DNA of 64,000 bases from NCBI GenBank assembly GCA_000296795.1, contig BAFH01000004.1:620001-684000 (forward strand). Reading direction: 5' to 3'. The position numbers were made by a program, and so were the translations under genes. Each line of letters begins with the position of its first letter. Positions within the stretch are counted from its first letter, which is position 1. The stretch comes from Candidatus Jettenia caeni. Its GTDB lineage: Bacteria; Planctomycetota; Brocadiia; Brocadiales; Brocadiaceae. Of this stretch, positions 7,293 through 52,609 are shown piece after piece. The notes beneath the pieces were generated by a model, which made no database searches, was not told the DNA's origin, and saw only the letters and a program-made list of their open reading frames with translations.

Positions 7293-7295
7293 TAT

Positions 7296-7727
7296 CTATA
7301 CGTCTAATATTACCAGTGTTTCCCATCCACTGTCGGTTCTTTCCAGCCGGAAATGATGGAGGGTTACGGCTTTGACATCGACCTTAAGATGGTGGCGTTT
7401 CGGATTGAGTTTTTCACCCATAGCGGTCGCTTCCAGCACATAGGTATGATCTTTCCCTTTAATTTGTATCTGTTGAGTGCGCACTATCAACTGTTCAGCA
7501 TCTTTGTAGTAAATGAACTCCTGCAGAAAATTGAAAAGGAGCATGTCCAGCTCTTCGTTTTCGAGCTGTATTTCACGCTTTTCCTGAAGCTGAATTGAAT
7601 CAAGATCTTCTACCATCACATGCATCGTAGCATTGGCTGCTGATATAAACGTCTCCTCTAAATCCTTACCCCAGGCTTTAAAAGCTGTATCAGCAATGGC
7701 AATATCTTCCAGATATTCGTATGGCAT
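7296..7727 (-). CDS. Archease, RtcB co-factor protein
   Basis: The protein has the archease pattern: YEYLEDIAIADTAFKAWGKDLEETF at the start, FISAANATMHVMVEDLDSI, then KVDVKAVTLHHF and a C-terminal VILDV. Archease lets the RNA ligase RtcB undergo multiple turnovers and guanylylation. rtcB lies upstream on the same strand, so the pair is functionally linked, although about 330 bases separate them. The open frame extends to a TTG at 7757; ATG at 7727 (MPYEYLE) gives the normal N-terminus, with ATG 7733 as an alternative. The IS element begins 4 bases beyond the stop codon. Confidence 0.82.
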   Translation of the reverse strand: MPYEYLEDIAIADTAFKAWGKDLEETFISAANATMHVMVEDLDSIQLQEKREIQLENEELDMLLFNFLQEFIYYKDAEQLIVRTQQIQIKGKDHTYVLEATAMGEKLNPKRHHLKVDVKAVTLHHFRLERTDSGWETLVILDV

Positions 7728-7883
7728 TATCATACTGCGGTACAACCGCACCTGCAATAAAAAAAATCAATAACACAATATCGATATAATTTTTGCATCA
7801 TGAGGACATATAGTATCAAATAGATGAAACCGGACGGAACATAATGAAACCAAATACAATGAGCCATGATTTGATTGCGCCAT

Positions 7884-7907
7884 CACGGACAAACGAGTTT
7901 GTCCGTG
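7884..7907. repeat. Perfect hairpin between rtcB and archease
   Basis: CACGGACAAA (7884-7893) and TTTGTCCGTG (7898-7907) form a 10-base perfect stem with a CGAG loop. It lies in the roughly 330-base gap between rtcB and archease, which otherwise shows only a fragment of a common intergenic repeat near 7988-8018 (CACAAGGTTTGCCCCTGC). It could be a processing or attenuation element in an rtcB-archease transcript, or a repeat remnant. There is no U-tract. Confidence 0.55.
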
Positions 7908-8056
7908 CCACCCTATCAAAAATACGTTCGGCTTCATATCTTGAGTACTATAATACCGCAGGAAAACTCATTTGGGATTATTACCTTTCCAGAGCAAGCA
8001 CAAGGTTTGCCCCTGCAAGATTATGATCTTTCCCTGTATTGACTATTCCGTGTGCG

Positions 8057-9514: not shown

Positions 9515-9884
9515 AAGTTCTTGTATTCCTTTTCTTACCTATGGTAACCTTCAAGAACAGAAAAATAAAATTTTGCTACATATCATTATTAGCATCTTTT
9601 ATACCAACTTGCAAGTCTATCCATTAATTAAGCCCTCGATACCCTTTCAATGCCGGATAAATATAAACCTGTAGAGGCACAAGATTTTGCGTCTCTCCAT
9701 AGCTATTTCGAAATTCCAGAATATACAATAAATACATGATTATAAACAATTGCCCTTACAAGATTGCAATATATGATCTTATCGAGTATAGTAAGCAGCA
9801 ATGAGGTAGTGCTATGATTTTTATTGTACAGGTAGATAAGTCAACACATACCATAGATGTAAGAGAAAAGATAGAGAGACCGGC
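9515..9884. other. Intergenic gap with one repeat copy (9672-9697)
   Basis: No convincing gene lies here. The repeat copy at 9672-9697 (agaggcacaagatttt followed by gcgtctctcc) is an imperfect member of the GAGACG...CGTCTC hairpin family also present at 4677-4705 and 31831-31913. The region must hold the divergent promoters for rtcB and the FAD oxidase, but I see no clear consensus pair. A short open frame at 9813-9911 overlapping the FAD-oxidase start looks accidental. Confidence 0.5.
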
Positions 9885-32942: not shown

Positions 32943-35900
32943 CTAAGCTTTTTCCACCTTTATTAATTCTCCGTTCAGATATTTTTTCATGAAATCATTC
33001 TCGTTGCCAGCGGTATACCCTGTCTTTGCCGGATCCCATAGCCCCTTACCTCCAATACCACCGTCCTCTGCCTTAGTAATCTTTACCAGGGTCTCCTTTG
33101 GGGTAGTATTAATACCATGGTTATCGGCCTCATAGCCAAAAACAAACTTCATACTCGTTTTTGACTTATGGAATAAGTTATCCAATTGGTGCATGGGCAT
33201 AGACCAATTCCTGGTGATGCTCTGTTGTGATCCATAACGGAAGCTTGATTGATACCCGGTGCCTGCCGATAGCGCCCTTCCATCAGGTCTTGTCTCATGA
33301 GCCTTCACCGACCGCTCTGTTGAAATCCACGCAGAGTGCTTCATCATGGTCACCCCGTACGGATATGCCGGATTGTACTTACACCGTAACATCAGACGCG
33401 CTACCTTATAGAACGGGTCGCTCGGCTTCCACCCCTCATATGGCCTGTCCGCAGGGTTGGCATCCACATACACATAATCACCATCATTGATTCCTAAATC
33501 CTTCGCCGCTTCCGGATTCATATGGATTTGATGTTCCCCCACGCCGGGCATTCTCTTATCCATCCGGTAGGGGTCGCCAAAGTTGTTGTTCCAGATAAAG
33601 TTCCAGTCCGTTACCGCCCACTGGGAATGTACCGTATGGCGGGATTTCGGTGTTACACAATAGAACTTATATCCCTTCTCCCACAAGAAGTTCTTCGTTT
33701 TCTTTGTCTCAGCCCACGACTTCTTGATGTTCCTTACCGTTCTCTCATCCCAATGTTCTGCATCCTCCGGTATTCCATAATCATCGGGACGGATATACGG
33801 ATTGGTGCTGACGATGACATTCGGAAGATACTGGGTTGCCTCCGGTCCTTCACGGTGTACGATAAAGTTCTCACCGTACTCTATAATCTCCGATTCATCA
33901 TTGTACCCCTGTAATCTCCCTGTTGGTGTATAGAAGGGGATGCTTTCATGTACCTGTTCCCAGAATGGATGTCTCGGATAGGTACGGTAGAGCAGCAAGG
34001 CAACTCCTGGCTCGCCATATTTCCCATTAATGATGTCAACAAAACTGTATCCCTTTGTCGTCGTACTGCCATCCAATAATCTCTGGATATAGACCTCTGG
34101 TCTTCCCTCGAGGGCAAACTTCCAAACATCATGGAATCTCATATCTCTGAGGAGCTCTCCAAGCTTGGCTGCCATACCCGCAAGGATCATCACATCATCC
34201 TTAGAGTCGTTCACCGGTTTTATACCGCCCTTCCATATCTGAATGAAGGGATTGGAGCATGAGGTGGTAATCTCATGGGTCTCAAACTCTGCCCAGGAGT
34301 TTGCCGGAAATGCAAAATCGGCATATTCAATAGAGCCGGTCATCTCTATATCGTTCGACATGATTTGTTCGATATTAGGATTAACATTCTTCAGCATCTG
34401 GTACACATGCTTGGCATTGTTTACCAGGTTTACGTTCGTAAACCACATGATTTTCGTTGGCGTCGGCATATGGGTTTTACCCGTAAAGCATTTACGTCCA
34501 TACTTGGGGGTATCCACAATTAACGGCCTGTCATTGTGATTCCAGTACGCCACTTCTTCATCATAGGCGCGCCCCTTTACTTTGAGATCCATTGCAGGCG
34601 CATCAGGATCAAGGTTCGGGTTAAACACATCCTCTGCTACCCATCCATAGAATCCGGGACCACTCCACTTTGATGCCTGGAAATTGCCCGCCTTATAGTT
34701 ACCCGACCAGGTATGAGAGCCTGAACCAGGATAACCGATATTCCCTGTTAACATCAGAGGTAAATAGGTTGATCTGTTAAACAATGTTGCATGGAACCAG
34801 TGGTTGATACCCTCACCATAATGGATTGCTACCGGCTTAATGGTTGCTATATCATGTGCCAGCCTTACGATTAACTCCTTTGGTGAGTTCGTCATTTCAA
34901 CGACACTGTCAATATCGTAATCCTTCAAATGTATTTTATACATCTCAAAGAGCGGCATGACCTCTATTTCTTTGCCATCTACTGTTTTCACCTTGAATGT
35001 TCCATCGAGAGCCGGATCAATACCCTTTGCAACAAGCTTATCACCTACATCATCACGGGTAATCGCTTTTGGGCTCTTTGTCTTTGCATCCCATACCACA
35101 AAGTCCCCGATAATCTCCCTCTGGTCATCATGCAAACCGTGAATCTTATAGCTTGCCCCATGTGAAATATCCTCTAGTTTATAATCCGGGAAGATATCTT
35201 TCGCCTGCAACCTCTTCAGGGTATCCGTCCTTACCAGTAAGGGGAAATCGGTAAACTTCTTCACATAATCTGCATCATACAACTTCTCATCCATGAGGAT
35301 CCTGGTTATCCCCAGGAACAATGCCGTATCGGTATTACACTTGATCGGTATCCAGTAATCTGCCTTTTGAGCAGACGGGCTATACTCAGGGGTAATAACA
35401 ACCAACTTCCCACCTCTCTCGAAAACCTGGGTTAACCAGTGCGCCTCAGGCATTTTATTCTCAATCAGATTCTTTCCGGTCTGGATTACCAACTTTGAGA
35501 ATCGTACATCATTCATGTCTACATCCGATGTCTGTAATCCATGAGAGAACGGATGTCCGGGAGCCTGATCACCATGCCAGGTATAGTTTGACCAGTTTCT
35601 TCCGCCCAATGCCTTGTCTGGCCCAACACCCCTGTTGTGACTATCGACCAGGGCAAGGGAATTGTTAAACCGGTACATCCCATATTTACCAATAACACCG
35701 AGTAGTCCCATACCACCGCGTCCCTTAAAGGTTCGTGTGCCGGCACCCTTCATCGCATCAACCATCTCTTTGGGATAACCCTGATCCAGGAGTTTCCTTG
35801 CACCTTCTTCCCCGCTATACTTTTTGGTAATGTGGATAATGCCCTTTGCTGCATAGGTCCAGGCGTCATCCCAGGAGGCCTTTAAGAGTTCATCCTGACC

Positions 35901-36392
35901 TCTGGCATCAAACATATACTTTGATTTATTTTCCGGTGTTAGTTCCGGGAATCCATCATCAGCCCATTGCTTCCATCCCTTTCGTATCAGAGGATACCGT
36001 AACCGATAGGGACCGTATACCCTGCGATGGAAGGTATATCCTTTCAGGCACATTCTGGGGTTCCAGTTCCTTGTAGCCTTATTTCCATACAGGTCTGCGT
36101 AGTTCTGATGATCATAATTCTGTTCAACCCTCATGAGTACTTCGTTTCTCACAAACGCCCTCACTCTACAGGCATGGGTATCATTGGGAGAGCAACAATA
36201 AGTGAAGGTACGATCGTACCGGTACTGTTCTCGATATACACTTTCCCATGCACGGTCTGGATAAGCATCCAGGGGGTTTCCAACTTCTACGGCGGGCTTT
36301 AACAACCTGAACGCCATTGCCTTATTGGCAAGGGTAAAGGTCGCACCCGTTGCGCCTGTCACCTGTAGGAAAGTCCTCCTCGTAAGTTTCAT
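32943..36392 (-). CDS. nxrA: Nitrite oxidoreductase catalytic subunit NxrA (molybdopterin, DMSO-reductase type II)
   Basis: The 1149-residue protein oxidises nitrite to nitrate in anammox bacteria and is translocated by Tat: MKLTRRTFLQ is a twin-arginine start. The Fe-S motif reads C67-x3-D71-x3-C75 with Cys115, an Asp standing where NarG has Cys. TWHGDQAPGHPFSHGLQTSD supplies the likely Mo-ligand Asp region. The middle and C-terminal molybdopterin-binding segments (VNPNIEQIMSNDIEMTGSIE; GEHQIHMNPEAAKDLGINDG) are typical. No NxrB, NxrC or chaperone gene is adjacent. The promoter about 230 bases upstream is strong. Family assignment is firm; nitrite versus nitrate direction is inferred. Confidence 0.93.
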   Translation of the reverse strand: MKLTRRTFLQVTGATGATFTLANKAMAFRLLKPAVEVGNPLDAYPDRAWESVYREQYRYDRTFTYCCSPNDTHACRVRAFVRNEVLMRVEQNYDHQNYADLYGNKATRNWNPRMCLKGYTFHRRVYGPYRLRYPLIRKGWKQWADDGFPELTPENKSKYMFDARGQDELLKASWDDAWTYAAKGIIHITKKYSGEEGARKLLDQGYPKEMVDAMKGAGTRTFKGRGGMGLLGVIGKYGMYRFNNSLALVDSHNRGVGPDKALGGRNWSNYTWHGDQAPGHPFSHGLQTSDVDMNDVRFSKLVIQTGKNLIENKMPEAHWLTQVFERGGKLVVITPEYSPSAQKADYWIPIKCNTDTALFLGITRILMDEKLYDADYVKKFTDFPLLVRTDTLKRLQAKDIFPDYKLEDISHGASYKIHGLHDDQREIIGDFVVWDAKTKSPKAITRDDVGDKLVAKGIDPALDGTFKVKTVDGKEIEVMPLFEMYKIHLKDYDIDSVVEMTNSPKELIVRLAHDIATIKPVAIHYGEGINHWFHATLFNRSTYLPLMLTGNIGYPGSGSHTWSGNYKAGNFQASKWSGPGFYGWVAEDVFNPNLDPDAPAMDLKVKGRAYDEEVAYWNHNDRPLIVDTPKYGRKCFTGKTHMPTPTKIMWFTNVNLVNNAKHVYQMLKNVNPNIEQIMSNDIEMTGSIEYADFAFPANSWAEFETHEITTSCSNPFIQIWKGGIKPVNDSKDDVMILAGMAAKLGELLRDMRFHDVWKFALEGRPEVYIQRLLDGSTTTKGYSFVDIINGKYGEPGVALLLYRTYPRHPFWEQVHESIPFYTPTGRLQGYNDESEIIEYGENFIVHREGPEATQYLPNVIVSTNPYIRPDDYGIPEDAEHWDERTVRNIKKSWAETKKTKNFLWEKGYKFYCVTPKSRHTVHSQWAVTDWNFIWNNNFGDPYRMDKRMPGVGEHQIHMNPEAAKDLGINDGDYVYVDANPADRPYEGWKPSDPFYKVARLMLRCKYNPAYPYGVTMMKHSAWISTERSVKAHETRPDGRALSAGTGYQSSFRYGSQQSITRNWSMPMHQLDNLFHKSKTSMKFVFGYEADNHGINTTPKETLVKITKAEDGGIGGKGLWDPAKTGYTAGNENDFMKKYLNGELIKVEKA

Positions 36393-37940: not shown

Positions 37941-38129
37941 TTCATTATGGCTCTCTTCGAATATCAATGTCAAAGACTCTTTCATCTGCGGATGTTTAGC
38001 GTTGTAATTTCACCGATCTTTCTGCAAAAGAGAGATTGGGGAATAAGATGATAAAGCTTGTAAGGAGATTTAACTGTGAAAAACCTGAATAACTGAGGAT
38101 ATTTCTACAGAAAAAGGATGGAATTTACG

Positions 38130-38843
38130 ATGAATGCGTTAGGAAAAGCAAAAGAGCCTTTTATATTTTCAACACAAGTCTCTCTTACCGAGCTTACCGG
38201 GTTAAAGGCAACAAATTTGCAGCAGTTACTTGATCTTATCAAGACAGTTCCAGGATCAGTTATTTATCATCATACTCATCATTTTCTCCAGGAACATCAA
38301 TATTTATTACCTGAACCGCCAAATGATTTTTCCTACTGGGTTACTGAATTTTTAGGTGAAGCAAGGCTTGGTGAATATTTGCTGAGCATTGATACCATTC
38401 AGTACGCAACAATTCGTGAACTCCGGGATAAAATAGCCCGTACCATTGAAGATTACGTTAAAGACTACCCAACATCATTAAATAAATTTGCAACCACAGG
38501 GGAAGAGTTCCGTTTTTTAAAATCTGTTAGCTTTATTTTACAAACACCACATAAAGCTTCAGATCTTAAGGAATTCAAAACTGCATTGCAAAAAGTAACA
38601 CCTCGTTCTCTCTATTTTCACATGTTTGAAGCAAGGCTTCGTATAAGACAGGGCATTAATGATTTTTCTAAATGGCTCGAGGATTGTTTATCAGAAAATA
38701 AACTGGCAAATAAAATAGCCGCCCTGGACCCCTATACCTATACTTTAGAAAATTTACGATTTACCATCATAAAGTTAGTCGAAAAAAGAATTGCCGAATC
38801 TTTAAAGGAACATCCGGTTATTCCAGAAGCTCTTCCAAAGTAA
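38130..38843 (+). CDS. DUF5752-type protein paired with trehalose synthase
   Basis: About 237 residues, soluble, helical, with two repeated halves: VPGSVIYHHTHHFLQEHQYL ... FSYWVTEFLG, then TPRSLYFHMFEARLRIRQ ... DFSKWLEDCL. The recurring FxxH(x)F and xFSxWL pattern fits DUF5752, which I recall beside TreT-like glycosyltransferases. ATG 38118 leaves no room for a ribosome site; ATG 38130 was chosen. The GT gene follows 7 bases later, so the two are co-translated. Function unknown. Confidence 0.7.
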   Translation: MNALGKAKEPFIFSTQVSLTELTGLKATNLQQLLDLIKTVPGSVIYHHTHHFLQEHQYLLPEPPNDFSYWVTEFLGEARLGEYLLSIDTIQYATIRELRDKIARTIEDYVKDYPTSLNKFATTGEEFRFLKSVSFILQTPHKASDLKEFKTALQKVTPRSLYFHMFEARLRIRQGINDFSKWLEDCLSENKLANKIAALDPYTYTLENLRFTIIKLVEKRIAESLKEHPVIPEALPK

Positions 38844-38850
38844 AAAAATT

Positions 38851-40074
38851 ATGGCAAAAATTTCAGAATATAGTTCTGTAGTCGGTTCTAGTACCATTGA
38901 AGAGTTACAATTATTAGCAGGCAAACTTCAGGAGAAAATTGTCCAAAATATCAATTCTACTGCAATGGGAGGTGGTGTTGCAGAACTTCTCAGTCGAATT
39001 GTGCCTTTGTTACAGGAATTAGGGGTAAATACCAGGTGGGATGTAATTAAAGGCGGGGAGAGTTTCTTCAATGTTACAAAGAAATTCCACAATGCCTTGC
39101 ACGGAAGGCCTGAAGAGATTAGTCCACAAATGTTTGAAGCATTTATGGAGACAAGCCAGCAAAACATTGAAGAACTTAAGGCATATGGAGATATCATGAT
39201 TATCCATGATCCACAACCTATTGCGCTTATTAAAAAAAAATTGTCTATGCCCGGCAGCAAGTGGGCATGGCGATGTCATATCGATATCTCATCCCCGGAT
39301 ACTCATGTATGGAATTTTCTAAAACCATTTATCCATCAGTATGATAGCGCGATTTTTTCTTCTCCAAATTTCTCACCAGCCTTACCTATCCGGCAATTTC
39401 TTATCCTGCCATCTATCGATCCTTTAAGCGATAAGAATAAAGATCTGCCTCAGGAAACAATCGATACGGTACTGGAAAAATATCAAATAAAGAAAGATAA
39501 ACCTATTATTACCCAGATCTCACGGTTTGACTATCTGAAAGATCCTATTGGCGTTATTGAAGCCTACCGTTTAGTAAAGAAGCGTATCGACTGCCAACTC
39601 ATTCTCGCCGGAGGAACAGCTACAGATGATCCGGAATCAAGCAAGGTTTTTGCAGACACAAAAGAAATAGCAGGAAACGATGCAGATATACATATTCTCC
39701 CTGTTCCATCCGGGAGTGACATAGAAATCAATGCGCTACAAAGGGCGTCCACCGTTATTATACAAAAATCACTGCGTGAAGGGTTTGGACTTACCGTAAC
39801 CGAGGCATTATGGAAGGCAAAACCGGTTGTCGCTTCCAGCACCGGTGGTATCCCATTACAAATCAGACATAAATATAATGGACTTTTATGCCATAGTATT
39901 TTTGGCGCCGCTCTCTCTATAAAACAGTTATTACATAACCCAGAATATGCTAAAAGGCTCGGTGAAAACGGACATGAACACGTTAAGCAGAACTTTATCC
40001 TTACTCGTCATCTCAAGGATTGCTTGCTTTTATTCTTATGCATGTATCATTCTGACGATATCATTCATTTATAA
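38851..40074 (+). CDS. TreT-like trehalose glycosyltransferring synthase (GT4)
   Basis: 407 residues with GT-B fold landmarks: TAMGGGVAELLSRIVPLLQE at the N-terminus (nucleotide-sugar loop), HDPQPIALI, ITQISRFDYLKDPIGVIEAY, and EGFGLTVTEALWKAKPVV (the E-x7-E motif). These fit TreT, which makes trehalose from NDP-glucose and glucose, often reversibly. It stands next to an ABC sugar importer and about 16 kb from otsAB, so trehalose or a related glucoside is the likely common substrate. The last 15 residues look unusual for the family. Confidence 0.8.
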   Translation: MAKISEYSSVVGSSTIEELQLLAGKLQEKIVQNINSTAMGGGVAELLSRIVPLLQELGVNTRWDVIKGGESFFNVTKKFHNALHGRPEEISPQMFEAFMETSQQNIEELKAYGDIMIIHDPQPIALIKKKLSMPGSKWAWRCHIDISSPDTHVWNFLKPFIHQYDSAIFSSPNFSPALPIRQFLILPSIDPLSDKNKDLPQETIDTVLEKYQIKKDKPIITQISRFDYLKDPIGVIEAYRLVKKRIDCQLILAGGTATDDPESSKVFADTKEIAGNDADIHILPVPSGSDIEINALQRASTVIIQKSLREGFGLTVTEALWKAKPVVASSTGGIPLQIRHKYNGLLCHSIFGAALSIKQLLHNPEYAKRLGENGHEHVKQNFILTRHLKDCLLLFLCMYHSDDIIHL

Positions 40075-40155: not shown

Positions 40156-40977
40156 ATGAATTATTACAAAAAAACTTTATTTTACCTGCTCGTAATTATC
40201 ATTACCGTTTGGAGTATATTTCCTTTCCTTTGGATTTTATTAACCTCTATCAAGCCTCCCTTTCAGATTATGCAATTACCACCGGTATTTCCCACTACCA
40301 TTACCCTTGCTGCATATAAGAATGTCCTTCTGAAAAGTTATTTTCCTCATTATTTATTCAATAGTTTTATGGTATCGTTATCAACGGTATTCATTACAAT
40401 ACCAATCGCACTTCTTGCGGCTTACAGTATATCACGCTTCTCATTCCGGAGAAAAACATCCATTCTCTTTATGATTATTATTTTATTTACCCTCCCTTCC
40501 ATAAGCCTTGTAGCTGCCCTTTATAAACTATTTTATACCTTAGGCTGGATTAATCTTCCCATCTCTCTTATCGTTACGTACAGTGCCAATAATTTCCCTT
40601 TGGCCTTTTTTCTTCTGGTAAAATATCTTGATAAGATCCCAACAGATATGGACTGTGCTGCCCTTATTGATGGATGCACCTATTTTCAAGCCTTTCGATA
40701 TATTATTACCCCCCTATCATTACCGGGGGTTATTTCTGCATCGGTTCTTATTTTTATTTTTTGCTGGAATGAATTTCTTTTTGCGCTTACTTTTACCCTT
40801 GATGAATCATCAAGATTAGCATCAGTAGGAATTGCATTATTTCAGGGTACCTTTGAGGTTCCCTGGGGTGATATTGCAGCAGCATCAGTTATAGTAACAC
40901 TTCCTCTTCTTCTGTTTTTGCTGTTTTTTCAAAAATATATTGTACAGGGACTAACAGCAGGGGCGCTTAAAGGATGA
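40156..40977 (+). CDS. Sugar ABC importer permease, MalG-like
   Basis: 273 residues with six hydrophobic segments and the inner-membrane EAA loop (DCAALIDGCTYFQAFRYIITPLSLPG). The C-terminal sequence FFQKYIVQGLTAGALKG is the classic MalG-type ending. It overlaps the ATPase gene by 4 bases (ATGA). With MalF (46123-46983) and MalK (40974-42029) it forms a complete CUT1 importer core. No free solute-binding protein gene is present; that role falls to the fused domain of the next large gene. Confidence 0.92.
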   Translation: MNYYKKTLFYLLVIIITVWSIFPFLWILLTSIKPPFQIMQLPPVFPTTITLAAYKNVLLKSYFPHYLFNSFMVSLSTVFITIPIALLAAYSISRFSFRRKTSILFMIIILFTLPSISLVAALYKLFYTLGWINLPISLIVTYSANNFPLAFFLLVKYLDKIPTDMDCAALIDGCTYFQAFRYIITPLSLPGVISASVLIFIFCWNEFLFALTFTLDESSRLASVGIALFQGTFEVPWGDIAAASVIVTLPLLLFLLFFQKYIVQGLTAGALKG

Positions 40978-42029
40978 AAATAAAATTACAAAATGTTATA
41001 AAACTCTATAACAACCATTACGTTGCTGTAAACAAGCTGAATTTAGATATATCCAGTGGTGAATTTCTTGTTGTGCTCGGCCCTAGCGGAAGCGGAAAAT
41101 CCACAACCTTGAATATGCTTGCTGGTTTGGAAATACCTACCTCCGGACATATATTCTTTAATGAACGTATCGTGAATAATGTCCCGCCCGGAAAAAGAGA
41201 TATCGCTCTGGTCTTCCAGAATTATGCCCTATACCCCCACATGAAGAGTTATGATAATATTGCCTTCCCCCTGAAAATACGGAAAGAAAAGGATTTACAC
41301 CATCGGGTTATAAAAACAGCTGAAATGCTGGGATTAAGCGCCTTACTGCATAAGTACCCAAAGGAACTCTCTGGTGGAGAAAGGCAACGGATAGCATTGG
41401 CACGGGCGCTCGTGAGAAATCCACAAGTCTTTCTCATGGATGAGCCACTCAGTAATTTAGACGCACGGCTTCGGCTCTCAGCGCGAGGGGAGTTAAAGAA
41501 ATTACAAAGACAGCGTAATATCACTACAATATATGTCACTCATGACCAAACAGAAGCACTTACTCTGGGAGATCGCATCGTAATTATGGATAAAGGCAAC
41601 TTACAACAGATAGGCACACCGGATGAAATATATCAGAAACCTCATAATACCTTTGTTGCCAGTTTCATTGGGGCTCCTCCCATGAACATGGTACAGGTGC
41701 AGAAATATGACACCCATTCTTTTATCCTTGGAAATACTACGATTGCATTTCCCACCCCTTTACCTGATCAAACAAATCTTATCCTTGGTATAAGACCTGA
41801 AAATCTGACAATAGTACCAGCAGATACACAAACCATTATACCATGTACCGTGGAACATATAGAATATCTCGGTAATGAATCGATAGGACATGTTACAATC
41901 AACCCTACGACAATATGGTACGCAAAGAATATGGGAGAAAGAATAAAGATAGGTGATGAAGCCGGCCTAAAATTTTCACCCAATGATGCTCACTGGTTCG
42001 ATTCTGTAACCAGAAAAAGGATAGCATAA
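40974..42029 (+). CDS. Sugar ABC importer ATPase, MalK/UgpC-like
   Basis: 351 residues with Walker A GPSGSGKST, Q-loop FQNYALYPHM, signature LSGGERQRIALARALV, Walker B VFLMDEPLSNLD, H-loop YVTHDQ and a C-terminal TOBE domain (about 240-350, with IGAPPMNMV and LGIRPENL). These are diagnostic of CUT1 MalK-type ATPases, which may be shared among importers. It is coupled to malG by ATGA and followed after 138 bases by the ATPase/binding-protein fusion. Confidence 0.94.
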   Translation: MKIKLQNVIKLYNNHYVAVNKLNLDISSGEFLVVLGPSGSGKSTTLNMLAGLEIPTSGHIFFNERIVNNVPPGKRDIALVFQNYALYPHMKSYDNIAFPLKIRKEKDLHHRVIKTAEMLGLSALLHKYPKELSGGERQRIALARALVRNPQVFLMDEPLSNLDARLRLSARGELKKLQRQRNITTIYVTHDQTEALTLGDRIVIMDKGNLQQIGTPDEIYQKPHNTFVASFIGAPPMNMVQVQKYDTHSFILGNTTIAFPTPLPDQTNLILGIRPENLTIVPADTQTIIPCTVEHIEYLGNESIGHVTINPTTIWYAKNMGERIKIGDEAGLKFSPNDAHWFDSVTRKRIA

Positions 42030-42167: not shown

Positions 42168-45100
42168 ATGAACTGGTATCAGCTTCCTGTAAGAGAAATA
42201 GTGCAAAAACTTGGAACATCCGATGAGGGATTGTCTGATGAGGAAGTCAAAGAACGCCTTCAGCACTATGGTCCAAACAGACTTGCAGAAGAGGAAAAGA
42301 TAAGCAAAATAAAGATCCTCCTTCACCAGTTTACCAGTCCCCTCATTTATATCCTTTTCGTAGCAGCATTCGTTACCTTTCTCCTGAAAGAATTTATTGA
42401 TACCAGTGTAATTATGGCAGTAGTATTCCTTAATACAATTATTGGTTATATCCAGGAATTTAAGGCAGAACAGAGTGTCAGGGCACTCAAAAAAATGCTG
42501 ATACCGAAGGCAAAGATTTTACGGAATGGACAAGAAAAAGAAATAAACAGCGAAGAACTGGTACCAGGTGACATCGTTCTTCTTGCATCAGGAGGCAAGG
42601 TACCGGCAGATCTAAGACTTTTTAAGACTCTTGAGTTAAAAATTGATGAATCCATGCTTACCGGTGAATCAATCCCTGGAGAAAAAACTACATCACCAAT
42701 ACAAAAGGATAATCTAACGCCAGGAGACCAGAAAAATATGGCCTTCACAGGAACAATTGTTGTAAGTGGAAGAGGGAGAGGCATTGTTACCGAAACGGGA
42801 AATAAAACGGTTCTTGGTCAAATTGCAAAGAACGTTAGAGAAACGGTGAAAATAAAAACACCTCTTCAGAATAAACTGGAGCGGTTTGCAAAAATCATAG
42901 GAGTTGTTATTGTTGGACTTTCTGGCATTCTCTTTGGTATAGGCTTCTTAGCGCATGGATCAGATATTTCTGAAATGTTTATGGTTGCTGTTGCTACTGC
43001 CGTATCAGCAATACCTGAGGGTCTTCCTGTTGCGGTAACCATTACTATGGCAATCGGTGTATCAAGAATGGTAAGGAGAAATGCTATTATAAGAAAGCTA
43101 CCCGCAGTGGAAACCCTGGGAAGTACTACCGTCATATGCTCTGACAAGACAGGAACACTAACAAAGAATGAAATGACCGTGAAACTCATTTATAATGAAA
43201 ATCATATCTATGAAGTAACCGGAACAGGATATAATCCAAAGGGTGAGATTCTTCGTGATGAGATGCCTGTTCCCCACAAAGACAAGGAAGATCTCCTGCT
43301 TGTTTTACGAATAGGATTACTTTGTAATGAATCTCATATTTATCTTGAAGATAGCCAATACAAAATTGATGGAGACCCTACAGAAGGAGCGCTTATTGTA
43401 TCAGCAATAAAGGGAGATCTTAACCCTGAAGAAGAGAGGAAAAATTATCCACAAATTGCGATTATACCTTTTGAATCGGAACGCGGTTATATGGCTACCC
43501 TTAACAAGCACCGAAACAAAAAATGTATTTTCGTAAAGGGCGCCCCGGAAAAGATAGTAGACATGTGTACCAAATTTAAAACAAATAGCAGCTCTCCGAA
43601 AAAAGAGATCCTTCAGGCTGCAAATACTTTTGCTAAAAAAGGTTTACGAGTACTCGCATTTGCTTATAAAGAAACGCCGAATGACAAGGAAGAACTTATT
43701 CACCGGGATATAGAATCAGGATTAACCTTTGCAGGTCTTCAGGGTATGATCGATCCGCCAAGACAAGAAGTAATAGAAGCAATAGAGGGGTGTAGACAAG
43801 CAGGAATCAGAACCATAATGATAACCGGTGACCATGCAATCACTGCAGTATCTATCGCAAAAGAGCTTGGATTAGGTGGACAGGACGAGAAGGTTTGCAC
43901 AGGAAAAGAGCTTGAAACGATGAGTGATGAAGAACTTTTTCATACGGTAAAAAACGTATCGGTATTTGCAAGGGTAGCGCCTCACCATAAGTTAAGAATA
44001 ACAAATCAATTAATAAAACAGGGTGAGGTTGTAGCGATGACAGGCGACGGAGTTAATGATGCACCTGCCCTCAAGGCTGCTCATATTGGTATTGCCATGG
44101 GCAGAACGGGAACCGATGTTGCGAAAGAGGCCTCCGATGCTGTCCTTACTGATGATAATTTTGCAAGCATTTTTGCAGCGGTTGAAGAGGGAAGGGTGGT
44201 GTATGATAATATCAAGAAGGTCACCCTCTTTCTGATATCATGCGGTTTTGGAGAACTGATTGCCATTATCACCACCGTTGCAATGGGTCTCCCTATACCC
44301 TATATAGCGGTACAGATACTCTGGTTGAACCTCGTAACAAATGGGCTTCAGGATATTGCTCTTGCCTTTGAACCAGGAGAAAAAGGAGTCTTACTGAGAC
44401 CTCCAAGGCATCCGAAAGAACGTATTCTTACAAGCATTATGATACAAAAGACTGTTCTTATGGGGCTTGTTATGGCTGCCGGAACGGTCATTCTCTACCT
44501 ATACCATCTCAATAAAGGGGCATCATTAGAACAGGCTCGTACCGTAGCCCTCACAACCATGGTCTTTTTCCAATTCTACCAAGCGCTTAACTGCCGTTCC
44601 GAATTTCAATCCATTTTCAGGAAGAACCCCCTGAGTAACCCGTTTTTATTCTTCAGCATGATTGCTGCCCTCTTTGCCCATCTTGCAGTGTTATATGTAC
44701 CGGTTCTTCAATGGGTTTTTAGAACAGTTCCTCTTACCAGAGAAGAATGGATTGATATTGGAGTAATAACCGTAGCAATAGTTATTGCAGTTGAGATTGA
44801 GAAATTGATAAGAAGAAGAAAAAGGAAAACAAGAGCAACGATTGCAGGATTTAAAACGGGAAAAGTATTTGCGCCAGCCAAAATACTTCTGATATCTGTT
44901 TGTATTTTCCTTGCATTATGGACTACCTATACATTCTTCAGGCCCAAAAGAGAAGATGAAGTTGTTTTTAGTATCGGGTGTGGCGCCGAAGAAATCGGAA
45001 TAATAAGGAGACTCATAGATACATTTGAAAAGGAAAATCCTGCGATACATGTTAAATTAAACATCCTTCCTGCGCCTACAGATCAGCAGCACCATTACTA

Positions 45101-46142
45101 TCTTACTACCTTTGGGGTAAAGTCTGAAGATATTGACGTGATGAGAATTGATACTATCTGGATTGCAGAATTTGCGTCAGCAAGATGGCTGGAGCCATTA
45201 GAAACATATATCAATCCTGGATATAAAGCATCATTTATTCCCATAATTGATGTAATAAACATATACCAGGATCGTTTATACGCCATTCCCTGGAATGCCG
45301 ATATTGGACTTTTCTATTATCGGGACGATTTATTAAAGAAATACCAGGCGTCTCCGCCGCAAACATGGGAAGAGCTTATTAAAACAGGCGCAAAAATTTC
45401 CTCCATGGAACCTGTATATGGATACCTCTGGCAAGGGAAACAATATGAGGGATTGGTCTGTAATTTTATTGAATTCATTGGCAGTAACAAGGGAGAAATA
45501 TTCGATGCACAGGGAAGAGTAGTTGTTAATTCGATACAAAATCACACAGCTCTCAATCTCATGCATGATTTACTATGGAAGTATCAGATATCACCGCCAA
45601 ATACCTACAGCGAACTTATGGAAGAGCCCACTCGTCATCTATTTCAACAGGGTAGAGGTCTTTTTTTAAGAAATTGGACTTATGTGTGGAGTCTTTTTCA
45701 GACAGACCAGTTTATGAGGAATAAGGTAGGAGTATCTCAACTGCCTAAATTCTCCGGTGGACGCCCTGCTCCTGTATACGGAGGATGGCATCTCGCTATA
45801 AATGCTAACTCAAAAAAGAAGAAGCAGGCATGGCAACTCGTTAAATTCTTAAGCTCACACAGGGTGCAAAGAGAACTATCCAGGAGACTATCCTGGGCGC
45901 CGACACGTACCTCATTATATAAAGACCCGAGACTGCTCCGAAGATTGCCATTTCTTTCAATCGTGCATGCATCATTTCCAAACGTTCAAATACGGCCCAA
46001 CCTTCCTTATTATCAGTGGGTGAGCGACATCATACAAAAACATGTTAACAGGGTATTATCGAACCAGGAGAGCAGCAAACAAGCGTTACAATCTATTCAA
46101 ACAAAACTCGAACGGATGAGAAATGAATTTACCAAAGACTAA
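42168..46142 (+). CDS. Fusion of P-type cation ATPase and family-1 sugar-binding protein, copy A
   Basis: 1324 residues. Residues 1 to about 895 form a complete P2-type ATPase: Thr165-Gly-Glu-Ser, TM4 PEGLP (Glu284), phosphorylation Asp326 in DKTGTLT, hinge TGDGVND (625-631) and TM6 NLVTNGLQD, where Asn725 replaces the Asp of SERCA pumps. After TM10 comes a Lys/Arg-rich cytoplasmic loop, an extra helix at about 906-924, and then a full extracellular solute-binding domain (about 930-1324) including LNILPAPTDQQHHYYLTT, AIPWNADIGLFYY and WEELI. The extra helix puts the binding domain outside, as an importer needs. The gene lies between malK and malF and overlaps malF by 20 bases. The cation is unknown. 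Confidence 0.93.
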   Translation: MNWYQLPVREIVQKLGTSDEGLSDEEVKERLQHYGPNRLAEEEKISKIKILLHQFTSPLIYILFVAAFVTFLLKEFIDTSVIMAVVFLNTIIGYIQEFKAEQSVRALKKMLIPKAKILRNGQEKEINSEELVPGDIVLLASGGKVPADLRLFKTLELKIDESMLTGESIPGEKTTSPIQKDNLTPGDQKNMAFTGTIVVSGRGRGIVTETGNKTVLGQIAKNVRETVKIKTPLQNKLERFAKIIGVVIVGLSGILFGIGFLAHGSDISEMFMVAVATAVSAIPEGLPVAVTITMAIGVSRMVRRNAIIRKLPAVETLGSTTVICSDKTGTLTKNEMTVKLIYNENHIYEVTGTGYNPKGEILRDEMPVPHKDKEDLLLVLRIGLLCNESHIYLEDSQYKIDGDPTEGALIVSAIKGDLNPEEERKNYPQIAIIPFESERGYMATLNKHRNKKCIFVKGAPEKIVDMCTKFKTNSSSPKKEILQAANTFAKKGLRVLAFAYKETPNDKEELIHRDIESGLTFAGLQGMIDPPRQEVIEAIEGCRQAGIRTIMITGDHAITAVSIAKELGLGGQDEKVCTGKELETMSDEELFHTVKNVSVFARVAPHHKLRITNQLIKQGEVVAMTGDGVNDAPALKAAHIGIAMGRTGTDVAKEASDAVLTDDNFASIFAAVEEGRVVYDNIKKVTLFLISCGFGELIAIITTVAMGLPIPYIAVQILWLNLVTNGLQDIALAFEPGEKGVLLRPPRHPKERILTSIMIQKTVLMGLVMAAGTVILYLYHLNKGASLEQARTVALTTMVFFQFYQALNCRSEFQSIFRKNPLSNPFLFFSMIAALFAHLAVLYVPVLQWVFRTVPLTREEWIDIGVITVAIVIAVEIEKLIRRRKRKTRATIAGFKTGKVFAPAKILLISVCIFLALWTTYTFFRPKREDEVVFSIGCGAEEIGIIRRLIDTFEKENPAIHVKLNILPAPTDQQHHYYLTTFGVKSEDIDVMRIDTIWIAEFASARWLEPLETYINPGYKASFIPIIDVINIYQDRLYAIPWNADIGLFYYRDDLLKKYQASPPQTWEELIKTGAKISSMEPVYGYLWQGKQYEGLVCNFIEFIGSNKGEIFDAQGRVVVNSIQNHTALNLMHDLLWKYQISPPNTYSELMEEPTRHLFQQGRGLFLRNWTYVWSLFQTDQFMRNKVGVSQLPKFSGGRPAPVYGGWHLAINANSKKKKQAWQLVKFLSSHRVQRELSRRLSWAPTRTSLYKDPRLLRRLPFLSIVHASFPNVQIRPNLPYYQWVSDIIQKHVNRVLSNQESSKQALQSIQTKLERMRNEFTKD
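45192..45251 (+). repeat. 60-base tract identical between fusion copies A and B
   Basis: 45192-45251 and 51659-51718 are identical (gagccattagaaacatat...cccataattgat), although the two genes differ at many positions on both sides. A further 41-base identical block follows shortly after (from 45282 in copy A). This lies in the sugar-binding domain, within the block encoding WLEPLETYINPGYKASFIPI. It suggests recent gene conversion. Confidence 0.85.
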
Positions 46143-46983
46143 GCTTGCTTACTTATTTTTATTACCTGGAATACTCCTGATACTGGCATTTAGCTTTATT
46201 CCATTCGTAGATACTATTATAACTTCCTTCCAAAGTGCAAAACTTATTTTACCAAAAGAACGATTTGCGGGATTTGATAATTATCAGGATATTGTAATCG
46301 ATACCCGCTTCTGGTACTCACTCTTTCTTACGCTTTTCTATACTTTTGTCTCAATATGCCTGGAAGCTATCCTGGGATTATGTTTTGCTCTTATCATGAA
46401 TCGTCTATCACCCAGAAGCAGCTTTTTAAGAGTCCTAATCCTTATCCCTTGGACAATCCCAACGGTAGTAACAGCGAGAATATGGCAATGGATGTTTGAT
46501 TATAATTTAGGAATTATAAATTATCTTTTTGAAATTTTTGGTTTTTCAAGGGTAAATTGGCTAGGAAAGCCTTTTTTAGCGTTTTTTTCAATTGTCATTG
46601 CAGATGTCTGGAAGACTGCCCCCTTTGTCGCCATAATTGTTTTAGCAGGTCTCTCTGCCATCCCGCAGGAGATATATAAAGCATCTGCTATTGACGGTGC
46701 AAATAGCTGGCAGCGATTCCGTTATATAACATTACCCTTGATATTGCCAATAGTAGGTGTAGCCATTATGTTCAGAGCTATAGATGCCCTGCGAATATTT
46801 GATCTCGTTTATGTACTTACCGGCGGCGGTCCAGGAGGTTCAACGGAAACCTTATCTGTCTATGCTTATAAACTGTTCTTTTATAAGGGGGATTTTGGAC
46901 AAGGAGCAGCTACATCAGTAATAATCTTACTCTTAGTTGCCGGCTTTGGATACTTCTATACAAAAAAATCCTTTGAAAAGTAA
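46123..46983 (+). CDS. Sugar ABC importer permease, MalF-like
   Basis: 286 residues with six hydrophobic segments and the EAA motif EIYKASAIDGANSWQRFRYI, followed by TLPLILP. YVLTGGGPGGSTETLSVYAY is the highly conserved CUT1 MalF/UgpA segment. It pairs with MalG at 40156. Its start codon lies within the 3' end of the fusion gene (20-base overlap), so the fusion and permease are made together. A 14-codon relic homologous to its N-terminus lies at 52590-52631. Confidence 0.92.
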   Translation: MNLPKTKLAYLFLLPGILLILAFSFIPFVDTIITSFQSAKLILPKERFAGFDNYQDIVIDTRFWYSLFLTLFYTFVSICLEAILGLCFALIMNRLSPRSSFLRVLILIPWTIPTVVTARIWQWMFDYNLGIINYLFEIFGFSRVNWLGKPFLAFFSIVIADVWKTAPFVAIIVLAGLSAIPQEIYKASAIDGANSWQRFRYITLPLILPIVGVAIMFRAIDALRIFDLVYVLTGGGPGGSTETLSVYAYKLFFYKGDFGQGAATSVIILLLVAGFGYFYTKKSFEK

Positions 46984-47450: not shown

Positions 47451-48647
47451 ATGGAAGTAGCTGAATTTTTTTTAAAATTTTTAATAATTTTGGTATCTGC
47501 AAAATGCTTTGCGGAAATGTTCGCCTTTTTACGCCTGCCCGCTGTATTAGGCGAAGTTATTGCTGGTATTATCATAGGACCAAGCCTTCTCGGGATTATA
47601 CAGGTTGATGCAACTCTTTACCTACTGGCAGAAATAGGTATTTTACTTCTTCTCTTTGAGGTTGGACTTGAAACAGATGTTGGACAAGTTGTAAAGGTTG
47701 GTGTACAATCATTTTTAGTTGCCATCACCGGCGTTGTTGCCCCTGCAGTCGCAGGTTTTTGGATAAGTAAATATATCTTTCATTTACCCCTCCTGGTTTC
47801 TCTCTTTATTGGAGGAACAATTGTCGCAACAAGTATTGGGATAACCATACGGGTACTTGTTGATATTAAAAAACATCAGACAAAGACTGCAAAAATTGTT
47901 CTTGGGGCAGCGGTTCTCGATGATATTATTGGTGTAGTTATTTTAGCAATACTCTATGATTTTGCCGTAAAAGGAGAGGTCCGGGTGATGGATGTAAGCA
48001 AAGTATTGGGGTTTATTGCCGTCTTTTTATTGCTTGCCCCTGTAATCACGAAGCTCCTTGTACCTCTTATTTCCAAATTATCATCGGGCAGTAAAACGAA
48101 TGGGATGATACCGACAATTATTATCTCCTTAATCTTAGTATTAGCTATTATCTCTCATAAAATCGGTGCACCGGGAATCCTCGGTTCTTTTGCTGCTGGT
48201 ATTGCCCTTGCAAGGAGGTTCTTTCTCCCTCTTGGTTCAACGATAGACCATTACAGTCATGGTATGGCTGAAAAGATTGAGAAACACATGAAGCCTATCA
48301 TTGATTTGTTTGTTCCTGTTTTTTTTGTGGTTGTAGGTGCATCCATGAATCTTAAGGTTATTGACTTTACATCCGTAACGTTCTGGCAAATGGCAGGGCT
48401 CTTAACGATCATAGCTATCGTTACAAAGATGATCAGTGGACTATGGGTCAAGGGTGGTCTCAAAACAAAACTTTCTACAGGTCTTGCAATGATCCCCCGG
48501 GGAGAAGTTGGTTTAATATTTGCTGAAGTAGGAAAGAAGAGTGGTATATTCGACGATTTGATTTATGCAATTATTGTCTTTATTGTTGCCTTAACAACAC
48601 TATTCGCACCTATCTTACTGAGATTTTTTATGAAAGGTGAAGAATGA
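47451..48647 (+). CDS. Kef/CPA2-type cation:proton antiporter
   Basis: 398 residues, a normal-length Na_H_Exchanger domain with 12 or 13 helices: LRLPAVLGEVIAGIIIGPSL, LLLFEVGLETDVGQV, GAAVLDDIIGVVILAI, ILGSFAAGIALARRF and MIPRGEVGLIFAEVGKK. VLDDIIG carries the two ion-site aspartates. It lacks the long N-terminal extension of the relative at 29093-31540. It overlaps fusion copy B by 4 bases (ATGA), so antiporter and P-type ATPase are co-translated and may form a cation cycle. Confidence 0.92.
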   Translation: MEVAEFFLKFLIILVSAKCFAEMFAFLRLPAVLGEVIAGIIIGPSLLGIIQVDATLYLLAEIGILLLLFEVGLETDVGQVVKVGVQSFLVAITGVVAPAVAGFWISKYIFHLPLLVSLFIGGTIVATSIGITIRVLVDIKKHQTKTAKIVLGAAVLDDIIGVVILAILYDFAVKGEVRVMDVSKVLGFIAVFLLLAPVITKLLVPLISKLSSGSKTNGMIPTIIISLILVLAIISHKIGAPGILGSFAAGIALARRFFLPLGSTIDHYSHGMAEKIEKHMKPIIDLFVPVFFVVVGASMNLKVIDFTSVTFWQMAGLLTIIAIVTKMISGLWVKGGLKTKLSTGLAMIPRGEVGLIFAEVGKKSGIFDDLIYAIIVFIVALTTLFAPILLRFFMKGEE

Positions 48648-51600
48648 ACTGGTATCAGCTTTCCATAAAAGAAACACTGCAAAGACTTCAAACATCTGAA
48701 GATGGACTGACTGACGAAGAAGCCAAAGAACGCCTTAAGCAGTATGGACAAAATAAACTCGCTGAGGAAGAAAAGATAAGCAAAATTAAAATCTTTTTCC
48801 ATCAGTTCACCAGCCCCCTTGTATATATCCTCCTTGTTACCGCGGTTGTAACATTTCTTTTTAAAGAATACATAGACGCTACGGTAATTATAGCTATCGT
48901 GGTTATTAATGCAATAATTGGTTACATTCAGGAGTTTAAGGCTGAACAAAGTGTAAGGGCGCTCAAGAAGATGGTAGTACCAAAGGCACGGGTACTCAGG
49001 AATGGTAAAGAAAAAGAGATACACAGTGAGGAACTGGTGCCGGGTGATATTGTTCTACTTACATCTGGTGTAAAGGTGCCAGCGGATCTCAGATTAATAA
49101 GAACAGTTGAATTGAGGGTCGAGGAGGCCATGCTTACGGGAGAGTCAGTTCCTGCTGAAAAGGTAGTCGTACCAATAAAAGAGGACAATTTGACTCCAGG
49201 CGATCAGAGGAATATGGCATTCATGGGTACCATTGTTATAAGTGGAAGGGCAAAGGGTGTTATTGTAGAAACGAGTTCAAAGACCGTTCTCGGCAGTATT
49301 GCCCAAGAAGTTAAGCAGGTAGGTGTTACAAAAGCACCCCTCCAGAAAAAGATAGAAAACTTCGCAAAGGTTATCGGACTCATTACCCTGGCAACCTCAG
49401 TTCTGCTTTTCATTATCGGTGTTATTGTCGGCGAAAGCGTTAAAGATATGTTTATGACGGCTGTTGCTGCCACCGTGGCGGCGATACCAGAGGGGCTTCC
49501 CATCGTTGTAACCATAGCAATGGCTATCGCTGTGGCAAGGATGGCAAGGCAAAATGCCATCGTAAGGAAGCTTCCCGCAGCAGAGACCCTCGGAAGTACT
49601 ACGGTCATATGTTCAGACAAAACCGGAACACTCACAAAAAACGAAATGACCGTAAAGCTTGTCTACGATGGAAAACATACCTATGAGGTAACAGGAAGCG
49701 GATATGAGCCAAAAGGTGAAATACTCCATGAGGATATGCCCATCGAAGCAAAGGAAAAAAAGATACTCCTTCAGGTTTTACGCATAGGACTTCTCTGCAA
49801 CGAGTCAAATATTTATGAGGAAGAAGATCAATACAAGGTTGACGGTGACCCTACAGAGGCAGCCCTTATTGTTTCTTCAATGAAGGCAGGTCTTAGCCAG
49901 GAAGAAGAAAAAAGGCACTATCCACAAATTGGAATCATACCCTTTGAGTCTGAACGCGGTTACATGGCAACGCTCCATAAACATGGAGGGAAAAAATTCA
50001 TATTCGTTAAAGGGGCACCCGAAAAGGTACTTGACATGTGTACCGCATGCATGGCGGCTGATAACCTTAACAAGAAAGAGATATCACATATTGCTGCCAA
50101 TTTTGCCAAAGAAGGCTTACGGGTACTTGCTTTTGCCTATAAAGAAGTTCCCCATGATACGGAAGAGATTAGTCACCATGATATAGAATCAGACCTAATC
50201 CTTGCCGGTCTCCAGGGGATGATGGACCCACCAAGACCAGAATCCATCGAAGCCGTTAAAGGGTGTAAAAAAGCAGGGATCAGGGTTGTAATGATTACAG
50301 GAGATCATGCCGTTACCGCAAAGGCCATTGCAAAAAGGCTGGATATCATTGGTGAAAATGCAGACGTTCTCACGGGCAAAGAACTCAATGAAATGAACGA
50401 CTCAACACTTTTTGAAAAGGTCAAAACAGTCTCGATATATGCACGGGTAGCGCCAGAGCATAAACTGAGAATAGTAAAACAGTTAAAAAAACACGGCGAG
50501 ATAGTTGCAGTGACCGGTGACGGCGTTAACGATGCGCCAGCCCTCAAAGAGGCACATATAGGCATCGCCATGGGGAGAACGGGAACTGATGTTGCAAAAG
50601 AGGCATCAGATATGGTTCTTACAGACGATAACTTTGCAACCATGTTTAATGCCGTAAAAGAGGGACGTGTCCTATTCGATAACATTCGCAAGGTTGTCTT
50701 TTTTCTTATACCAACAGGTATAGCAGCGATACTCTCCATTATTGCTACCATAATTCTGGGCGTACCAATGCCCTATGTCCCTACCCAGCTTCTCTGGTTA
50801 AATATTGTTACAAATGGTTTGCAAGATATTGCCCTTGCCTTTGAACCGGGAGAAAAAGGAGTAATAGACAGGCCGCCCCGGAATCCAAAGGAAGGAATAA
50901 TGTCTCGTGTTCTTATTGAAAGAACTATACTTGTAAGCTTCGTAATCTCTCTCGGTGTTATCTTTAATTTCATCTCTGCTTTACATGAAGGGGTACCCAT
51001 AGAAAAGGCAAGGACAACGGCACTAACGACTATGGTATTTTTCCAATTTTTTCAGGCATGGAATTCCCGCTCCGAGACCCAGTCTGTCTTCCGGATGAAC
51101 CCCATAAGTAATCCCTTTCTCTTTTACAGCATGATTGCAGCCATTTTCGCCCAGCTTGCAGTATTATACGTACCCCCCCTTCAGTGGATTTTCAGGACAC
51201 AACCGCTAACATCAAGTGAATGGATACATGTGGGAATAGCAAGTGTTACCATTATCGTTATTATTGAATTTGACAAATGGATAAGAAGAAGGAAAGGAAA
51301 AGCAGCCGTTATAGAAGCCGGAAGAAGAAAAATACTCACACCAGCAAATATACTTCTCTCATTCGTTTGTATTTTCCTTATGCTATGGATTGCTTATACA
51401 TTTTTCAGGCCTAAAAAGGAGGATGAAATTGTTTTTAGCATTGGAGCTGAAAGCAAGGAGATTGATTTCATAAGAAATCTCTTAAACGATTTTGAAGATA
51501 AAAACCCTTCTGTAAAAGTTAAACTAAATATCCTTCCCGCACCTACTGATCAGCAACACCATTATTATCTCACTACTTTAGGAGCCAGATCAACTGACAT

Positions 51601-52609
51601 TGATGTATTGAGAGTTGATACGATTTGGATTGCCGAATTTGCATCAGCAGGATGGTTAGAGCCATTAGAAACATATATCAATCCTGGATATAAAGCATCA
51701 TTTATTCCCATAATTGATAAGACAAACAGATACCGTGATCGTTTATATGCCATTCCCTGGAATGCCGATATTGGACTTTTCTATTATCGACGGGATTTAT
51801 TAAAGAAATATCAGGTATCTCCACCGAAAACATGGGAAGAGCTTATTGAAATAGGTACAAAAATTTCTCCCACTGAGCCTGTGTATGGGTATCTCTGGCA
51901 GGGAAAACAATATGAGGGATTGGTATGTAACTTTATTGAATTTATCGGAAGTAACAATGGAGAGATTATCAACGAAGAAGGAAAGATAGTTGTTAATTCT
52001 CCACAAAATAAAATAGCTTTAGACCTTATGCATGATTTAATATGGAAATATAGGATATCGCCACCCAATACCCCCGGTGAACTTATGGAAGAATCTTCAA
52101 GGCATCTTTTTCAACAAGAAAAAGGCCTTTTTCTCAGAAACTGGACTTACGTATGGGATTTAAGTCAGAGAGACCAATCAACGAAAGGTAAGATAGGCGT
52201 AACCCGGCTGCCAAGATTCCCGGATGGAAAATCAACATCGGTATATGCAGGCTGGCACCTCGCCATAAACACCAATTCAATGAAGAAGGAACAAGCATGG
52301 CAACTTATTAACTTCTTAACCTCGCGCCGGATACAAAAAGAGTTGGCCTTACATTTAGCATGGGCACCGACACGAAACGCATTATACAAAAATCCAAGGT
52401 TGCTTCGAAAATTACCTTTTCTCCCCATAGTAGAAGAATCTTTTCACACTATTCAAATACGACCCAATCTCCCATATTATCAGCGGATCAGCGACGTCAT
52501 ACAAAATGAGGTTAATAAAGTGTTATCGAATCAGTTAGACAGCCAAAAAGCATTGCAAACTATTCAGACAGAATTAGAACGGGTTCAACATGAATTTATC
52601 AAAGACTAA
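48644..52609 (+). CDS. Fusion of P-type cation ATPase and family-1 sugar-binding protein, copy B
   Basis: 1321 residues, same architecture as copy A and by eye about two thirds identical or more over the ATPase. It has TGES, PEGLP, Asp325 in DKTGTLT, TGDGVND, NIVTNGLQDIALAFEP, a basic loop, an extra helix (NILLSFVCIFLMLWIAYTFF), then the sugar-binding domain. Both halves are intact and all catalytic residues are kept, so both copies appear to be under selection. It follows an antiporter instead of malK. Its 3' end retains the first codons of a malF gene, so it derives from a duplication of the malK-side block. Confidence 0.93.
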   Translation: MNWYQLSIKETLQRLQTSEDGLTDEEAKERLKQYGQNKLAEEEKISKIKIFFHQFTSPLVYILLVTAVVTFLFKEYIDATVIIAIVVINAIIGYIQEFKAEQSVRALKKMVVPKARVLRNGKEKEIHSEELVPGDIVLLTSGVKVPADLRLIRTVELRVEEAMLTGESVPAEKVVVPIKEDNLTPGDQRNMAFMGTIVISGRAKGVIVETSSKTVLGSIAQEVKQVGVTKAPLQKKIENFAKVIGLITLATSVLLFIIGVIVGESVKDMFMTAVAATVAAIPEGLPIVVTIAMAIAVARMARQNAIVRKLPAAETLGSTTVICSDKTGTLTKNEMTVKLVYDGKHTYEVTGSGYEPKGEILHEDMPIEAKEKKILLQVLRIGLLCNESNIYEEEDQYKVDGDPTEAALIVSSMKAGLSQEEEKRHYPQIGIIPFESERGYMATLHKHGGKKFIFVKGAPEKVLDMCTACMAADNLNKKEISHIAANFAKEGLRVLAFAYKEVPHDTEEISHHDIESDLILAGLQGMMDPPRPESIEAVKGCKKAGIRVVMITGDHAVTAKAIAKRLDIIGENADVLTGKELNEMNDSTLFEKVKTVSIYARVAPEHKLRIVKQLKKHGEIVAVTGDGVNDAPALKEAHIGIAMGRTGTDVAKEASDMVLTDDNFATMFNAVKEGRVLFDNIRKVVFFLIPTGIAAILSIIATIILGVPMPYVPTQLLWLNIVTNGLQDIALAFEPGEKGVIDRPPRNPKEGIMSRVLIERTILVSFVISLGVIFNFISALHEGVPIEKARTTALTTMVFFQFFQAWNSRSETQSVFRMNPISNPFLFYSMIAAIFAQLAVLYVPPLQWIFRTQPLTSSEWIHVGIASVTIIVIIEFDKWIRRRKGKAAVIEAGRRKILTPANILLSFVCIFLMLWIAYTFFRPKKEDEIVFSIGAESKEIDFIRNLLNDFEDKNPSVKVKLNILPAPTDQQHHYYLTTLGARSTDIDVLRVDTIWIAEFASAGWLEPLETYINPGYKASFIPIIDKTNRYRDRLYAIPWNADIGLFYYRRDLLKKYQVSPPKTWEELIEIGTKISPTEPVYGYLWQGKQYEGLVCNFIEFIGSNNGEIINEEGKIVVNSPQNKIALDLMHDLIWKYRISPPNTPGELMEESSRHLFQQEKGLFLRNWTYVWDLSQRDQSTKGKIGVTRLPRFPDGKSTSVYAGWHLAINTNSMKKEQAWQLINFLTSRRIQKELALHLAWAPTRNALYKNPRLLRKLPFLPIVEESFHTIQIRPNLPYYQRISDVIQNEVNKVLSNQLDSQKALQTIQTELERVQHEFIKD

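Follow-up and report, generated by a model that had tools for sequence, protein, structure and literature searches.

Can an ion pump and the receptor of an ABC importer be one and the same protein? The question arises in the window, a stretch of 64,000 nucleotides from the genome of Candidatus Jettenia caeni, where an earlier note based on the sequence alone had described a cation ATPase and a sugar-binding domain in a single chain. The gene concerned (copy 1, 42168..46142; forward strand, as are all features of the window given here unless stated otherwise) is open in a single frame from the ATG at 42168 to the stop at 46142, 1324 codons without interruption in the list of open reading frames, and encodes 1324 aa in the order P2-type ATPase, linker, eleventh transmembrane helix (TM11) and solute-binding protein (SBP). 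The ATPase part (aa 1-885, 42168..44822) has the ten-helix P2 layout, with Pfam and PDB matches and the expected motifs, and is complete over aa 3-881, with the Pfam domains Cation_ATPase_N (aa 3-69), E1-E2_ATPase (110-304), Hydrolase (322-639), Cation_ATPase (385-469) and Cation_ATPase_C (709-881). A basic cytosolic linker (aa 886-899, 44823..44864) leads to TM11 (aa ~900-920, 44865..44927) and then to a solute-binding domain of the trehalose/maltose-binding protein (TMBP) type (aa 925-1324 and the stop codon, 44940..46142), matched by SBP_bac_1 at aa 944-1234 (E 4.9e-32). All of these Pfam matches exceed the curated cut-offs, including E1-E2_ATPase, Hydrolase and SBP_bac_1, for which the earlier note had proposed a domain search. 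Hydropathy places M10 at ~862-880 and the additional helix at 900-918, and an AlphaFold2 model covering aa 690-1324 of copy 1 (mean pLDDT 86, pTM 0.67) shows M10 as a long helix, followed by a linker modeled with low confidence, a separate helix at aa ~903-923 and an SBP fold, for which the best Foldseek match is 1eu8 (TMt 0.89). Both results support the proposed topology, in which the extra helix puts the binding domain outside.

The window holds a second gene of the same domain architecture, as judged from the open reading frame list and Pfam (copy 2, 48644..52609; 1321 aa), with an ATPase of a second subtype and a solute-binding domain (aa 922-1321 and the stop codon, 51407..52609) that is 72% identical to that of copy 1. 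We also identified the fusion in another Jettenia genome (G001, 1322 aa), in Ca. Jettenia ecosi (1324 aa) and in a Loosdrechtia genome (G012, 1343 aa) assigned to the genus of Ca. Loosdrechtia aerotolerans. The carriers are thus all three Jettenia genomes, that of the window included, and one of the two Loosdrechtia genomes in a sample of these five, and the SBP of the window genome is 97% identical to that of J. ecosi. Together with the open frame and the Pfam domains, this genome survey bears out the fusion at the gene level. A sequencing or assembly error hiding a stop at the junction, one of the dangers foreseen for that claim, is ruled out because independent genomes agree and the linker differs between species by indels of whole codons. 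Copy 2 of J. ecosi begins at a contig end (L121:12412-12608), and its start contains an in-frame stop and a frame shift, reflecting either decay or a contig-end error.

The surroundings of copy 1 are those of a type I sugar ABC importer (MalFGK), with two permeases, a MalK-type ATPase and an SBP, here as a fusion, in one operon. A malG-like permease gene (40156..40977; BPD_transp_1, MalG-like) is followed by a malK/ugpC-like ATPase gene (40974..42029; profile matches), the fusion gene and a malF-like permease gene (46123..46983), which overlaps the end of the SBP by 20 bases; an overlap is likewise seen in relatives with a free SBP. The order malG-malK-fusion-malF verifies the view that the gene sits in the slot of the binding protein. 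Upstream of the importer genes are a gene for a DUF5752 protein (38118..38843), a partner of treT and a conserved neighbor in many loci, and one for a TreT-like trehalose synthase (38851..40074), which matches TreT_GT1 and scores 366 bits with TreT_Thcocales, under the 775-bit cut-off. In G001, otsA- and otsB-like genes come after malF, and in G012, this place is taken by gpgS-like and mannosyl-3-phosphoglycerate-phosphatase (MPGP)-family genes. TreT, OtsA/OtsB and GpgS produce trehalose or glucosylglycerate, which are known osmolytes. Between the two fusion genes lies a gene for a CPA2-type Na+/H+ antiporter (47451..48647; profile matches), the end of which is overlapped by the ATG of copy 2, and its position beside copy 2 fits a role in ion homeostasis. 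Taken together, the treT, otsAB and gpgS/phosphatase genes and the antiporter point to osmolyte and ion homeostasis. Antiporter-type neighbors of bacterial P-type ATPases have already been described (PMC7016017), and the pairing of treT with a trehalose ABC importer is known from Thermotoga (PMC3750489). Further upstream, on the reverse strand, a 1149-aa open reading frame (32943-36392) resembles, by eye, a NarG/NXR-type molybdoenzyme, as would suit an anammox genome.

The binding-protein half is a family-1 SBP of predicted trehalose/maltose type. The closest solved structure to the copy 1 domain is the trehalose/maltose-binding protein of Thermococcus litoralis (1EU8; E 2e-96, with 40% identity in the Foldseek alignment). 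As in the window, the ABC genes of the 1EU8 system and of the Thermotoga treEFG-treT system adjoin or are co-regulated with treT, whereas their binding proteins are free, with no ATPase attached. To assess the ligand site, we used the residues mutated in the alpha-glycoside-binding-protein PDB entries matched by Foldseek (D118, W287, R356 and R49). The fused SBP keeps the D118, W287 and R356 positions of the Thermus protein, and the position of R49 is occupied by Gln, as it is in the free relatives outside Thermococcus. A search of the window genome with the fused SBP as query found no second TMBP-like SBP, in agreement with the earlier note, which had seen no free binding protein nearby; three other SBP_bac_1 loci in the genome are too dissimilar to be detected with this query. 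Since there is no other such binding protein in the genome, the MalF-MalG-MalK importer probably uses the fused domain as its receptor, as far as sequence comparison can tell.

The pump half is equally conventional in its parts. The motifs TGES (165), PEGLP (283), DKTGTLT (326) and TGDGVND (625) are all intact in copy 1, as had been read from the sequence, and DKTGT, TGES and TGDGVND together with Cation_ATPase_N and Cation_ATPase_C identify a P2-type (type II) P-type ATPase. Over aa 5-887, the closest solved pumps are SPCA1 and LMCA1, P2-type Ca2+ pumps with the same domain order and motifs and no SBP attached. The protein falls outside the PMR1/SERCA-type Ca2+-ATPases, with 756.7 bits against a cut-off of 798.3 and 686 against 703.4 for the NCBIfam equivalogs. 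In addition, the conserved M6 Asp of SPCA1 and LMCA1 is Asn (VTNGLQD) across this ATPase clade, in fused and free members. A Glu in M5 is kept in copy 1 and absent from copy 2. Because of this M6 substitution and the difference in M5 between the copies, the motifs do not point to one particular ion. Two further P2-type ATPases of the genome are unusual in other ways. One (L127:855-4079, forward strand; about 132354-135578 of G000:C3) has an N-terminal PTS EIIA-2 domain (PF00359, E 4e-30), which makes it another unusual fusion; several related genomes have ATPases, known by frame length alone, of comparable size (open frames of about 1030-1100 aa). The other (L124:718-4221, reverse strand; about 1811517-1815020 of G000:C3) is a 1167-aa protein with two Cation_ATPase_C stretches, and its C-terminal extension resembles a second Cation_ATPase_C segment (an M5-M10 repeat).

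Our preferred reading, to which we give a probability of roughly 60%, is that the fusion is a genuine membrane protein with two functions: the receptor of an osmolyte importer is anchored on an ion pump, and together they form one unit for osmolyte uptake and ion extrusion. The N-terminal two thirds would be an ordinary P2-type cation pump with both of its ends in the cytoplasm; after M10, the basic linker would lead into the former SBP anchor helix, now TM11, and the binding domain would lie in the periplasm. There it would capture an osmolyte disaccharide and hand it over to MalFG for import driven by MalK, the ligand being most likely a recaptured osmolyte disaccharide such as trehalose or glucosylglycerate. 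The covalent link would hold the pump beside its own importer and keep the doses of pump and receptor equal. We infer that the SBP serves MalFGK, that its ligand is of this class and that pump and importer receptor are co-localized, the last of which would follow if the chain stays intact.

The fusion probably originated when an ATPase gene came to occupy the position directly upstream of an anchored SBP gene and the intervening stop was lost. A passive fusion is also plausible, in which stop loss merged two operon neighbors, each half functions as it did before and the link means nothing beyond a shared anchor. Relatives with unfused genes lend this idea some weight. In L. aerotolerans (G005), the two genes are adjacent and separate: the C-terminal part of the ATPase ends in KKVRKK and a stop, a free SBP begins with MKLTAKQ a few dozen bases on, and the short spacer contains several more stops in the ATPase frame. 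The sister genera lack the fusion, with Brocadia and Kuenenia encoding a free SBP of ~430 aa before malF. The best 80 SBP relatives in GTDB species genomes include only one fusion, that of J. ecosi (in four of the 80 the SBP frame runs off its contig, and two longer frames have no N-terminal Pfam domain). Likewise, among 392 planctomycete genomes, SBP matches at E <= 1e-30 revealed it only in Jettenia and G012, and ATPase matches at E <= 1e-215 included no further open frame that reaches the length of the fusions. The free SBPs and ATPases of Brocadia, Kuenenia and Loosdrechtia are orthologues of the two halves (SBP 60-68%, ATPase 69-78%) encoded by separate genes, with the ATPase gene ~17-25 kb downstream of the SBP gene in several Brocadia. 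The free SBP already has one N-terminal hydrophobic helix, and in Brocadia, Kuenenia and Loosdrechtia this anchor is homologous to TM11 and aligns with it, which indicates that the extra helix predates the fusion and that the SBP was membrane-tethered beforehand.

Rates of evolution at the junction also favor a passive fusion. Comparisons between Jettenia species give dN/dS values of 0.16-0.27 for the ATPase, 0.09-0.16 for the SBP and, for the linker, which has few sites, ~0.6-0.7 in two of three comparisons and >1 in the third. Judging from these ratios, both halves are under purifying selection; pseudogene halves are ruled out by the ratios and the intact motifs. The junction is less constrained than either half, yet it stays in frame, and a weakly constrained linker argues mildly against a precise mechanical role. 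Against a merely passive link, three Jettenia species and Loosdrechtia G012 have all kept the fusion, which involves two ATPase subtypes, and internal start sites are gone in Jettenia. In G012, an internal ATG at aa 925 stands behind AAGGAAA at the old SBP start, and some free SBP may be made from it. In Jettenia, where no ATG with an AAGGAAA-like site of this kind is present, we judged internal re-initiation unlikely; copy 1 offers only TTG 880, preceded by a weak GAGA, and copy 2 only an ATG that lies within TM11. On balance, a passive fusion strikes us as a tentative possibility, the best placed of the alternatives.

The history of the two copies suggests that the fused state is old. In the ATPase tree, copy 1 groups with the free G005 ATPase at low support (81/62), near the ATPases of G028 and G025, and copy 2 forms a firm group (100/100) with a tandem pair of G012 ATPases of near-equal sequence, the first free (L122:4386-7181) and the second SBP-fused (7244-11275). 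In the SBP tree, both Jettenia copies form one clade with G012 and G005 (97/95). A windowed comparison of the copy 2 SBP finds its N-terminal half nearer to copy 1 and its C-terminal half nearer to G012, and separate trees of the SBP halves agree with this mosaic (100/99 and 95/90). Synonymous divergence between the copies is 2.2 in the ATPase and 1.0 in the SBP, about a twofold difference. A simple recent duplication of one fused gene is ruled out by the two ATPase subtypes and by SBP halves with differing sister groups. The mosaic pattern suggests that gene conversion has acted within the SBP region. We infer that the second ATPase subtype was fused long ago, at least once, and that conversion took place between the copies; the fusion of the first subtype may have arisen either independently or by conversion.

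The earlier note had suggested that pump and importer may share one membrane complex or that uptake may be coupled to ion extrusion; either is a possibility that goes beyond the confirmed fusion. A stronger form of the preferred reading is a coupled machine, in which osmolyte binding or delivery to MalFGK and the pump cycle affect each other, so that an extruded ion is exchanged for an imported osmolyte; we find this doubtful. Slightly less probable still is a ligand-gated pump, in which the binding domain senses external osmolyte and regulates the pump in cis. Its topology would be right, with a single helix after M10 and the ectodomain outside, and copy 2 lacks permease genes of its own immediately beside it, as expected of a sensor. 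There are analogies as well: Venus-flytrap domains regulate glutamate receptors, and the Na,K-ATPase beta subunit, with one helix and an ectodomain, supports its pump. However, copy 1 occupies the receptor slot of an importer operon in a genome that has no other TMBP-like SBP, and the fused SBPs share their site residues with the free importer SBPs. An equally improbable outcome is that the chain is cut near TM11 into an ordinary pump and an ordinary SBP. In its favor, TM11 descends from an N-terminal signal or anchor segment; against it, reading the alignment by eye reveals neither a lipobox cysteine nor an A-x-A motif behind the helix, whether the SBP is fused or free.

A receptor held on a membrane protein is familiar in itself. 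In OpuA/GlnPQ-type ABC importers, an SBP domain is also covalently attached to a membrane transporter, and elsewhere SBPs are fused to channels, kinases and receptors. The present protein differs from the OpuA type in that its binding domain is joined not to the ABC permease itself but to an unrelated P-type ion pump, with MalF and MalG encoded by separate open reading frames. The earlier note knew of no described union of an ion pump with an ABC receptor, and our literature search, mostly of openly readable papers, likewise turned up no report of an SBP joined to a P-type pump. In the paper on the J. ecosi genome, the sole mention is of a maltose/maltodextrin ABC transporter (PMC6828613). Each module belongs to a known family, and it is their joining for which no report was found. 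Within a single bacterial family, the series from a free SBP, through an adjacent ATPase and SBP, to the fused form illustrates how a fusion of this kind comes about, and with its pieces one can test directly whether a primary ion pump and an ABC importer can act as one unit in the osmotic adaptation of anammox bacteria.
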